From an uncultured bacterium (GTDB taxonomy: Bacteria > Actinomycetota > Actinomycetes > S36-B12), in assembly GCA_903850745.1 (NCBI GenBank), contig CAINMH010000086.1, forward strand, positions 1 through 37,669: a DNA stretch of 37,669 nt, in the 5' to 3' direction. The position numbers and the translations under genes are program-made. The notes under the pieces are model-generated. The model saw only the letters and a list, made by a program, of their open reading frames with translations. It was not told where the DNA came from and did no database searches. Positions 25,254-29,110 of this stretch are shown here, in pieces; the stretch's first letter is position 1; each line of letters begins with the position of its first letter.

Positions 25254-25440
25254 GTTAGTCACGTGACTGTGCGAACAGCAGGAAGTTGTACGACTGACTA
25301 ACGAGGTGGACCTCAAAATAATGACTGAAAAAATCTGCGTTTCCGCTTGCAGAGTCCTGCAATGAGGTAAATAGTTTGCCCCGACTCCATCAGGAGCCAC
25401 CGCGCGGTAAGCACTTTGCTCCCCGCCTAGAGGAGGTTTC
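25254..25440 (+). promoter_or_regulatory. leader and promoter region of the rhodopsin gene
   Basis: This 187-bp stretch has no gene. It contains GTTAGTCA (25254-25261) and its reverse complement TGACTAAC (25295-25302), and a perfect 10-bp palindrome GTCACGTGAC at 25258-25267 overlapping the first arm. A weak promoter candidate is TTGCAG (25347-25352) with TAAATA (25368-25373) at a short spacing of 15. A strong AGAGGAGG (25430-25437) precedes the ATG at 25441, implying high expression. Confidence 0.4.
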
Positions 25441-26286
25441 ATGCCAAGCACAGCCGACAACGTTGTAGAGGTCCTCTCCAATACGCAGTTCCAGACCGTC
25501 TACAACGTTTTGTCATTCGCCCTCGCCAGCATGCTGGCGACGACCGTCTTCCTCCTGGCCGTTCAGGGCCGGGTCCTTCCCCGCTACCGGCTCGCTGTCG
25601 TCATCTCGGCGATGGTCTGCTTGATCGCGGCTTACCACTACCTTCGTATTTTCAACTCCTTCACCGACGCGTACATCGCGGTTGAAGAAGGCGTCAAGGG
25701 CGTTGCCACCGAGTACAACCTCGTTAAGGGCGATGGCTTCAACGAGGGCTACCGCTACGTTGACTGGCTGCTGACCGTGCCGCTGCTGCTCTTCGAAACC
25801 GTTGCGGTGTTGGCACTTCCTCGCAAGACGCGCAGCAGCCTGCTGTGGAAGCTCATCCCTGCTTCGATCCTCATGATCGTTCTTGGCTACCCCGGCGAGA
25901 TCATGGCCGGTGGCTTCGACTCCATGAAGACCGTGTGGGGCATCCTCTCCACGATTCCGTTCCTGTACATCCTCTACGTACTCTTCGTCGAGATGACCAA
26001 GGCATCCAGCACTCAGCCGACCCAGGTGGGCAAGGAACTGCGCGGACTGCGTTGGTTGCTCCTCGCGACGTGGGGCGTTTACCCGATCTCCTACCTGCTT
26101 CCGCAGCTGGGCATCAGCGGCGCCGACTCGTTCGTCGGCCGTCAGATCGGTTACTCCATTGCAGACGTGTTGGCCAAGTGCCTCTACGGCCTGTTGATCT
26201 TCAAGATCGCTCGCATCAAGAGCGCCGACGACGACGCAACGTTCGCCGCGGCAGAGTTCAAGGAAGCACCTTCCAGCAAGGCGTAA
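25441..26286 (+). CDS. proton-pumping microbial rhodopsin, xanthorhodopsin/actinorhodopsin type
   Basis: A 281-residue seven-helix retinal protein. Helix C reads RYVDWLLTVPLLLFE: R105, proton acceptor D108, T112 and proton donor E119, the D-T-E triad of outward proton pumps. H66 on helix B (AAYHYLRIF) matches the His that pairs with the acceptor in proteorhodopsin. L116, at the colour-tuning site, predicts green absorption. Helix G has D242 and the retinal Schiff-base lysine K246 (IADVLAKCLYG). Helix E reads TVWGILSTIPFLYILYVLF; G167 takes the place of bacteriorhodopsin W138, as in xanthorhodopsin, where it opens a fenestration for a carotenoid antenna. Codon use is strongly C-ending, which suggests high expression. 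No retinal-forming oxygenase gene lies in the window. Confidence 0.96.
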   Translation: MPSTADNVVEVLSNTQFQTVYNVLSFALASMLATTVFLLAVQGRVLPRYRLAVVISAMVCLIAAYHYLRIFNSFTDAYIAVEEGVKGVATEYNLVKGDGFNEGYRYVDWLLTVPLLLFETVAVLALPRKTRSSLLWKLIPASILMIVLGYPGEIMAGGFDSMKTVWGILSTIPFLYILYVLFVEMTKASSTQPTQVGKELRGLRWLLLATWGVYPISYLLPQLGISGADSFVGRQIGYSIADVLAKCLYGLLIFKIARIKSADDDATFAAAEFKEAPSSKA

Positions 26287-26419: not shown

Positions 26420-27181
26420 CTAGCTGCTGATGACTGGAGGGGTGCGTCGACGCAATGACGCGCCCCTCCACATCCAATTGCGTGACAGTCCGCGAGGATC
26501 CAAACTCTTAACTAGATCCTTAGTCCAGTTCACGTCTTCGAGTGCTATTAGCCCGGCACCGGCGTAAACCTCCGCGTACTGCTCTGGTCGGTACTTCTCA
26601 CGACTGATGAATCGGCTGCTGTGCTTATCGGATCCGTTGCGCATGTAGCCGATCCGAGGAATTCGGTCAGTGCAGGGGATGTTCCAACTTCTTGCAATAT
26701 CCACAAGAATCTCAGGTTTGCGCAACAACTGATGATGTACGACCCACGATGTGGCGAAAGTCGAATCCTCACACCAGTCATGTAGCTGGGTGTAGTAGTC
26801 GATCCACCGATGCACCAACGGTTCGATGTCGACTCGCGAGAGGGCCCGCACGTCACGGCGCTCTCGCTTCGCTCGATAACGCTCCAGGGAATCCATCCAC
26901 ATCACGACATCGCGTACGCACACAAGAATGCGTAAATCGGCCCTTTCATAGGACTGAATGATTTTCTCGAAGTCTGCCGGAGTGAGATCTGTCTCGGCAC
27001 GTCCGATATCCCCTTCGCGGAGGCTTGCTACCGCCGCCTCAAGACTTGGGAGTTCAGGCTTGTTCCCCAACATGGCCGCCAGCACTCGTGAGTCTGGGCA
27101 GATCGCCTCCATCAGGGCTCGGGCGTAGTTAGTGCCCGTCCGTTGTAGCCCGTATTGCTTGATCCAATACCGCGGCTCCAT
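26420..27181 (-). CDS. sulfotransferase-like protein
   Basis: A 253-residue cytoplasmic protein that starts MEPRYWIKQYGLQRTGTNYARAL. The segment GLQRTGTNY is in the position of the 5'-phosphosulfate-binding loop of P-loop sulfotransferases, where a similar R-T/S-G-T/S-N pattern holds the PAPS phosphate. ILVCVRDVVMWMDSLERYR fits the 3'-phosphate-binding strand with R-D, and YMRNGSDKHSSRFISREKYRPEQ near the C-terminus resembles the region that contacts PAPS. The acceptor is unknown. It stands alone, convergent with the rhodopsin and divergent from the secreted repeat protein, without glycan or PAPS synthesis genes nearby. Confidence 0.65.
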   Translation of the reverse strand: MEPRYWIKQYGLQRTGTNYARALMEAICPDSRVLAAMLGNKPELPSLEAAVASLREGDIGRAETDLTPADFEKIIQSYERADLRILVCVRDVVMWMDSLERYRAKRERRDVRALSRVDIEPLVHRWIDYYTQLHDWCEDSTFATSWVVHHQLLRKPEILVDIARSWNIPCTDRIPRIGYMRNGSDKHSSRFISREKYRPEQYAEVYAGAGLIALEDVNWTKDLVKSLDPRGLSRNWMWRGASLRRRTPPVISS

Positions 27182-27304: not shown

Positions 27305-29110
27305 ATGGCCAAGGTTCCAGCGCTGTTTATGGCGAGTGCAGTCTTTGTTGGGTCAGGGGTGCTGGGGCTGAGCGCTTCCACCGCGGCTGTGACCACGAGT
27401 CAATGGAATTCCAATCTCGGCAGTGGGCTCAGCGACATTGGCGTAGCGATTGCCGTCCAGTCTGACGGCAAGGTCTTGGTGGGTGGAGAGTTCGGTGCGT
27501 TCAATGAGGACGGCGGGATCAATCACCTAGTCAGACTCAATACTGATGGCACGCTGGACACTACTTTCATTGCAAACATCGGCACCGGGTTCAACAACTC
27601 GGTCGAGGCGATCGCGGTTCAACCCGACGGCAAGATTCTCGTCGGTGGAGTGTTCTCTTCTGTCAACGGTGCGACGGATCCATCTGGGCTGGTACGGCTC
27701 AACGCTGACGGCACCCCAGACAACGCGGGTTTCAACAATGCACTCGGCAGTGGTTTCGACATGGGTGTTACCGCACTTGCTACGACACTCGATGGCGACA
27801 TCCTCGTCGGGGGCAACTTCACATCACTTGACACAACTGATGTGCCAGATCGGCTCGTGCGAATTAACTCCGACGGCACGATCGACAGCGACACGAGCTT
27901 TAACACCAACCTAGGCACCGGTTTTGATTCCACGATCTACTCAATTGCTACCGATCACAGCGACTTCATTGTCGTCGGAGGAGATTTCCAAACTCTCAAT
28001 GGATCTGGTGCCATCCCCAAGCGCCTTCTGCATCTGAATGGTTCGGGAGTTTCGGCTACGACGTTCAACACCAATCTTGGGACCGGGTTTGATTCGTCGG
28101 TTTACTCCATCGCGCTACGTTCCGACAACTCCCTTTACGTCGGCGGTGCGTTTACACAACTTAATGCAGATGTAGGCACTCCCGATAAGTTGGTTCGCCT
28201 CACCGCAAGTGGTGCGATCGATAGCGCCTTCGCGACTGCGCTCGGTCTGGGCATGAGTGGAGGCGATGTCTTTGCCGTGGCGGTGCGTCCAGATGGCGGT
28301 GTGTTCGCCGCGGGTGAATTCACAGGTTGGGCTGGGAGCGCGGGGCCGATGGGCCTCGTCGCCTTTCGTGCGGATGGAGGGTGGTGTACAGATTTCAATA
28401 GTCACCTAGGCGTCGGCATCGCCTCTGGGGATTATCTATATGCCGTTGCCGCACGTGGCGACGACGACGCGATTATCACGGGCAACTTCACCAGTTTTGG
28501 CAATTACTCCGGGTCTGTTGGCTACCTACTTCGAGTCAAGACTCCGGTTGCGCCGACAAAGCCGAGAAACATTCAATCTGTAGCCGGCAACAGTTCGGCT
28601 CGTGTCACGTGGACGATGCCGAGTTTTGATGGTGGTAGGCCCATCACTTCAGTCAACGTCAACATCAACCCATCCGGCAACTGCACGGTTGATTCGTGGA
28701 ATTCGGTGTCTGGGTCGGCAACTTGCACGGGACTCGACAACGGGATGCGCTACACCGTGATCGTTTCCGCGAACAACAGCGTAGGTGTGGGAACATCGGG
28801 CTATGTAAATGTTCGGCCCTACACAACTCCAGGCAAAGTGAGTCAATTCGCCAAATCGTTCCCGGGCCCCGGCAAGGCACGCATCACATGGCGGGCTCCA
28901 GAGACAAATGGTGCGAAGATCAAACGCTATGAATATTGCCTGACTGCTTGCCAACGTGGGATGAACTGGTACGCCACCGCCCTCAATACCATTCCAGCTA
29001 TGGGGCTCTCTGGACTTGTGAAAGGCGCCGTCTATTCCGTACGGGTGCGAGCAGTGAATGCAGCCGGCCATGGTTCGGTCGCGATATTCGCCTTCCGCCA
29101 GTTCAAGTAG
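27305..29110 (+). CDS. secreted protein with seven delta-60 repeats and two fibronectin type III-like domains
   Basis: A 601-residue secreted protein. Its signal peptide is residues 1-28 (MAKVPALFMASAVFVGSGVL, then GLSASTAA). Residues about 45-410 contain seven repeats of some 50-56 residues with the pattern IAVQxDGKxLVGGxFxxxN...LVRLNxDGTxD, known as delta-60 repeats; the later copies are more diverged (FAAGEFTGW, AIITGNFTSF). Seven copies suit one beta-propeller. Residues about 415-510 and 511-601 are two FnIII-like domains (PTKPRNIQSVAGNSSARVTW; ITWRAPETNGAKIKRYEYC). There is no sortase motif or C-terminal helix, so it is probably released or non-covalently surface-bound. The start ATG 27305 gives the complete signal peptide. 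Confidence 0.88.
   Translation: MAKVPALFMASAVFVGSGVLGLSASTAAVTTSQWNSNLGSGLSDIGVAIAVQSDGKVLVGGEFGAFNEDGGINHLVRLNTDGTLDTTFIANIGTGFNNSVEAIAVQPDGKILVGGVFSSVNGATDPSGLVRLNADGTPDNAGFNNALGSGFDMGVTALATTLDGDILVGGNFTSLDTTDVPDRLVRINSDGTIDSDTSFNTNLGTGFDSTIYSIATDHSDFIVVGGDFQTLNGSGAIPKRLLHLNGSGVSATTFNTNLGTGFDSSVYSIALRSDNSLYVGGAFTQLNADVGTPDKLVRLTASGAIDSAFATALGLGMSGGDVFAVAVRPDGGVFAAGEFTGWAGSAGPMGLVAFRADGGWCTDFNSHLGVGIASGDYLYAVAARGDDDAIITGNFTSFGNYSGSVGYLLRVKTPVAPTKPRNIQSVAGNSSARVTWTMPSFDGGRPITSVNVNINPSGNCTVDSWNSVSGSATCTGLDNGMRYTVIVSANNSVGVGTSGYVNVRPYTTPGKVSQFAKSFPGPGKARITWRAPETNGAKIKRYEYCLTACQRGMNWYATALNTIPAMGLSGLVKGAVYSVRVRAVNAAGHGSVAIFAFRQFK

Follow-up and report, generated by a model that had tools for sequence, protein, structure and literature searches.

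Fenestration glycine and candidate carotenoid partner of an actinorhodopsin from an uncultured actinobacterium

Does the rhodopsin encoded in this stretch of actinobacterial DNA (37,669 nucleotides, hereafter the window) use a carotenoid antenna? The question is raised by a single residue, the fenestration glycine G167, which stands where bacteriorhodopsin (BR) has W138. Gloeobacter rhodopsin (GR) and Kin4B8 cannot bind carotenoids without such a glycine, which may nevertheless not be enough by itself, and the antenna carotenoids known so far have a ring with a 3-hydroxy or a 4-keto group. Actinorhodopsins are very common in lakes, and if they carried antennas, estimates of freshwater bacterial light use would change. 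With this locus comes another genome in which a pump, an enzyme for retinal and a well-defined set of clustered carotenoid genes are found together, which limits the carotenoids worth considering as a partner.

Identity and pump residues of the rhodopsin

The rhodopsin gene was recovered exactly where the original prediction had placed it, with its ATG at 25441 and its stop at 26286 on the forward strand (Table 1). Its product is a type 1 rhodopsin (PF01036 Bac_rhodopsin, E 2.5e-39; Pfam), and the closest solved structure is PDB 9hfk, whose five chains match with an E of 5e-85; its title reads “Bacteriorhodopsin”, but it is presumably Rhodoluna actinorhodopsin. GR (6nwd) matches with an E of 2e-78, and psXR (9wfa), Kin4B8 (7ytb) and xanthorhodopsin (XR, 3ddl) are further solved chains near the protein. 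Scanning 84,980 species genomes yielded 261 relatives, and the analysis kept the best 80, nearly all actinobacterial; most family relatives are about 72–77% identical to the window's rhodopsin. In the tree, this rhodopsin and 9hfk fall on the actinobacterial side, apart from GR and XR/Kin4B8, with weak support for the deep node (0.55). The window's own genome (G000) encodes one rhodopsin. It is an ordinary actinorhodopsin of a freshwater-type actinobacterium, and within the xanthorhodopsin group it belongs to the actinorhodopsin branch.

Table 1. Features of the rhodopsin gene, in positions of the window.
Feature	Position	Strand	Basis
AGGAGG, likely ribosome-binding site (rhodopsin gene)	25431..25436	+	Read from the sequence; a few bases 5' of the ATG
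Actinorhodopsin (proton-pump rhodopsin), 281 aa	25441..26286	+	Pfam and PDB-chain matches
D108 (acceptor), T112, L116 (green-tuning position), E119 (donor)	25762..25797	+	Aligned with BR D85, T89, L93, D96
Codon of G167, fenestration glycine (BR W138, XR G156, GR G178, Kin4B8 G153)	25939..25941	+	Alignment; Gly in 79/80 relatives
Codons of Y218, L219, Q222, L223, equivalent to Kin4B8 Y204, A205, S208, Y209 of the carotenoid ring pocket	26092..26109	+	Alignment, compared with the PMC12308411 table
Codon of K246, retinal Schiff-base lysine (BR K216)	26176..26178	+	Alignment

The protein was aligned with MAFFT together with the solved chains, BR (sequence confirmed against PDB) and the best 80 of the 261 relatives. 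It contains the residues by which a type 1 proton pump is recognized, namely a helix 7 lysine (K246), an Asp acceptor (D108) and a Glu or Asp donor (here E119), and the pump residues together with H66 are identical across all aligned relatives. The complete D-T-E proton pump that had been proposed is thus borne out by the alignment of D108, T112 and E119, plus H66 and K246, as is the green-type residue L116, which matches BR L93. The absorption of the actinorhodopsin RlActR at 534 nm (PMC11790970) is consistent with L116 as a green-tuning leucine. Judging from these residues, retinal on K246 would isomerize under green light, the Schiff-base proton would go to D108, and E119 would re-supply it, resulting in light-driven outward proton pumping. 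G167 would leave an opening beside the retinal ring, and this opening would have been inherited from the xanthorhodopsin group. On sequence grounds, we consider a green-light outward proton pump with an open, inherited carotenoid site very probable.

The fenestration glycine and the rest of the carotenoid pocket

G167 sits in the helix 5 motif VWGILST, compared to VWWAIST in BR, within a stretch free of gaps, and the alignment leaves it at the BR W138 position without the shift that would have spoken against the original prediction. Glycine occupies this position in 79 of the best 80 of the 261 relatives and in all 40 rhodopsins that a whole-genome search found in the window's own order, a set overlapping the 80. 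The one exception, the rhodopsin of Nesterenkonia sp. LB17 (L077:6001-6825), has Phe at the fenestration position, Gly at 168 and Met at 171, and its site is apparently closed. Judged by the alignment, the fenestration glycine characterizes the actinorhodopsin/xanthorhodopsin group as a whole and is not proof of an antenna. Its presentation as a distinguishing feature of this particular rhodopsin did not survive the comparison with the 80 relatives, and the glycine had been published for actinorhodopsin in 2021, when G145 of ActR-13023 was described as the equivalent of XR G156 (PMC8113403). The glycine itself adds nothing new to what is known from actinorhodopsin. Its near-universal presence in the relatives, together with a dN/dS of 0.07 for the rhodopsin against a same-genus relative (L002), indicates that G167 is under selection and not present by chance.

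The remainder of the pocket was compared at 12 GR positions that are either named in the GR carotenoid study (PMC9151804) or adjoin those named. Nine of them are identical in the window's rhodopsin (G167, S170, T171, F174, L178, W211, P215, I216 and Y218), and the remaining three differ, with GR T179 replaced by I168, A186 by Leu and S221 by Thr. The tyrosine at the Kin4B8 Y204 position, which is conserved across all known binders (PMC12308411), is kept as Y218. At the two ring-selecting positions, 3-hydroxy binders have Ser/Thr and Tyr/Asp/Glu, and 4-keto binders have Met and Ala/Leu (PMC12308411); the aligned pair Q222/L223 matches neither pattern. Position 222 varies among the best 80 of the 261 relatives (Met 42, Gln 16, Leu 12, Ile 7, Val 3).

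Retinal and carotenoid genes in the genome and across the order

Following up the suggestion that carotenoid genes should be sought elsewhere in the genome (2.57 Mb in 201 contigs, draft, 99% complete), we found them on two contigs. Contig 91 carries blh, encoding a Blh-type beta-carotene cleavage enzyme (PF15461, E 6e-36; TIGR03753 above cut-off), and contig 196 carries a carotenoid cluster in the order crtYc-crtYd / crtB-GT-crtI-crtE-crtD-like-cruG-like-cruF. It comprises crtYc and crtYd (PF18916; TIGR03462), crtB, a mannosyltransferase-like gene (GT), crtI, a prenyl diphosphate synthase gene (crtE) and genes for a CrtD-like desaturase, a CruG-like glycosyltransferase and a CruF-like hydratase, the last three being family-level assignments below the NCBIfam equivalog cut-offs, with CruF above the Pfam cut-off only. 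Such a gene set gives beta-carotene, for retinal, and a gamma-carotene that is 1'-hydroxylated, 3',4'-desaturated and glycosylated. The cluster thus predicts a monocyclic 1'-hydroxy glycoside as the host carotenoid, that is, the salinixanthin skeleton minus its 4-keto group. Since this glycoside would be the main carotenoid beyond beta-carotene, it would also be the likeliest occupant if anything fills the G167 opening.

No member of the CrtZ, CrtW or CrtR families was found in the window's draft genome. The hydroxyl group should therefore lie on the open-chain end (CruF type) and not on the ring that would enter the pocket, unless an unrecognized enzyme such as a P450 acts; the genome encodes four P450s as possible ring hydroxylases. 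Several candidates for ring modification were considered and rejected. Two FA_desaturase matches, taken as possible CrtW/CrtR, are an AlkB-type alkane hydroxylase with a C-terminal rubredoxin fusion (L097:1141-2490, contig 95) and an acyl desaturase. A second CrtI-like protein, considered as a CrtO ketolase, scored 61.8 bits against a CrtO-model cut-off of 1000 and matches CrtD far better. Extra genes in the gaps of the relatives' carotenoid clusters resemble, among those listed and going by their translations only, MetF and a cation/proton antiporter.

Across 118 genomes of the order, 72 encode a PF01036 rhodopsin, 103 CruF and 21 Blh. CruF is present in 68 of the 72 genomes with and 35 of the 46 genomes without rhodopsin (Fisher p 0.005, without correction for kinship or genome completeness). 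Rhodopsin is present in all 21 Blh genomes (p 1e-5) and no rhodopsin-less genome has Blh; 51 of the 72 rhodopsin genomes are without a Blh-family retinal enzyme, and similar gaps have been published for other actinobacteria (PMC12422013). The core arrangement crtYc-crtYd / crtB-crtI-crtE-crtD-cruG-cruF is kept throughout the order. This order-wide cluster (L085:10962-19973 and L096:1408-2286) predicts a salinixanthin-like glycoside lacking the 4-keto group. Because CruF is common even where rhodopsin is missing, the carotenoid appears to serve the lineage as a general pigment, one that the rhodopsin could draw on but that is not dedicated to it.

Possible roles of the predicted opening and comparison with known systems

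Two neighbouring genes had been put forward as possible carotenoid modifiers, a UbiA prenyltransferase gene (24418; PF01040, E 3.5e-19) directly upstream of the rhodopsin gene on the same strand and a gene for a CrtO-like acyltransferase (17638; Pfam “CrtO”, PF18927, E 4.7e-18). Both are present, but a link to the rhodopsin was not supported. In the rhodopsin flanks (up to 6 kb) of the best 80 of the 261 relatives, UbiA occurs beside rhodopsin only in the same-genus relative, with another gene in between, and the CrtO-like acyltransferase in none; both are absent from the carotenoid cluster regions of 40 relatives. Having neither synteny beyond the genus nor membership of a carotenoid cluster, their closeness to the rhodopsin is no evidence for an antenna pathway. 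It is accordingly most improbable that the UbiA protein elongates lycopene to provide a C50 carotenoid partner and that the rhodopsin–UbiA pair is a functional unit, even though the UbiA enzyme gene crtEb occurs in the carotenoid clusters of other actinorhodopsin bearers (PMC12422013) and the adjacency itself would fit; no carotenoid-specific UbiA model matched, and the best hit was a generic prenyltransferase, at 49 bits where the cut-off is 269. A plasmid search with UbiA gave one weak, uninformative match. The acyltransferase could acylate the carotenoid glycoside. On the other side, the rhodopsin gene adjoins a minus-strand gene for a 253-aa protein without a Pfam match (26420-27181), whose homologue in the same-genus relative lies on the opposite side of the rhodopsin, so that the neighbourhood has been rearranged. 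Further downstream (27305-29110) follows a secreted-looking protein with DUF5122 beta-propeller repeats and then two fibronectin type III domains.

In a working antenna pump, the host's own monocyclic glycoside, or a derivative whose ring has been hydroxylated by an unrecognized enzyme, would sit in the G167 opening and pass blue-green energy to retinal. We regard this as a genuine possibility with somewhat less than an even chance, because the pocket is largely intact (G167, Y218, T171, F174 and S170 are all kept) and one actinorhodopsin binds its own carotenoid, yet ring oxygen is absent from the predicted carotenoid, as it is from beta-carotene, which does not bind Kin4B8. Purified ActR-13023 bound the carotenoid of its own strain in calorimetry, and its initial pumping rate rose, whereas salinixanthin slowed its pumping (PMC8113403). 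Q222 offers a polar residue where zeaxanthin-binding rhodopsins have Ser or Thr, and the predicted carotenoid shares the salinixanthin skeleton; on the other hand, position 223 is Leu and not the polar Tyr/Asp/Glu of 3-hydroxy binders, the genome search returned no CrtZ, CrtW or CrtR, and the literature examined yielded no energy-transfer data for any actinorhodopsin. Alternatively, the glycine might have been inherited and kept for other reasons, such as retinal pocket shape, absorption tuning or lipid packing, with no carotenoid bound in the cell. This account is plausible, if short of probable: the glycine is near-universal whatever the rest of the pocket, with M, Q, L, I or V at position 222 of the relatives, and the carotenoid cluster is not specific to rhodopsin-bearing genomes. 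However, the GR mutation G178W improves stability and pumping without carotenoid (PMC9151804), and the retention of glycine in 79 of 80 relatives despite such a benefit suggests that the opening is useful. It is also conceivable that the order's actinorhodopsins use as antenna a monocyclic carotenoid glycoside whose beta-ring is unsubstituted, with Gly, Tyr and a Gln in place of Ser/Thr or Met holding it. This we consider unlikely; if true, it would be a third carotenoid–rhodopsin pairing beside the 4-keto and 3-hydroxy types.

Known systems resemble the window's rhodopsin in different respects. With XR of Salinibacter ruber (3ddl) and its salinixanthin, it has the glycine (G156) and the tyrosine (Y207) in common, and the carotenoid predicted for the host is built on the same monocyclic glycoside skeleton; however, salinixanthin carries a 4-keto ring, no known ketolase turned up in the window's genome, and XR M211 is replaced by Q222. 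GR (6nwd) is matched by the equivalents of G178, S181, T182, F185, W222, P226, I227 and Y229, but M233 is replaced by Q222, and the carotenoids bound by GR are 4-keto forms, whereas the search of the window's genome found no ketolase to make them. Kin4B8 (7ytb, 8i2z) has the same glycine, Thr and Tyr in its ring pocket and likewise a polar residue at the 208 equivalent, whereas S208 is replaced by Q222 and Y209 by L223, and its effective antennas are 3-hydroxylated xanthophylls. Among the actinorhodopsins, 9hfk differs in having Phe and Met in place of Y218 and Q222, but it shares with ActR-13023 (PMC8113403), RlActR (PMC11790970) and the window's rhodopsin the D-T-E motif, the histidine, the glycine at the XR G156 position, the leucine at the green-tuning site and the AEFK-type C-terminal tail.
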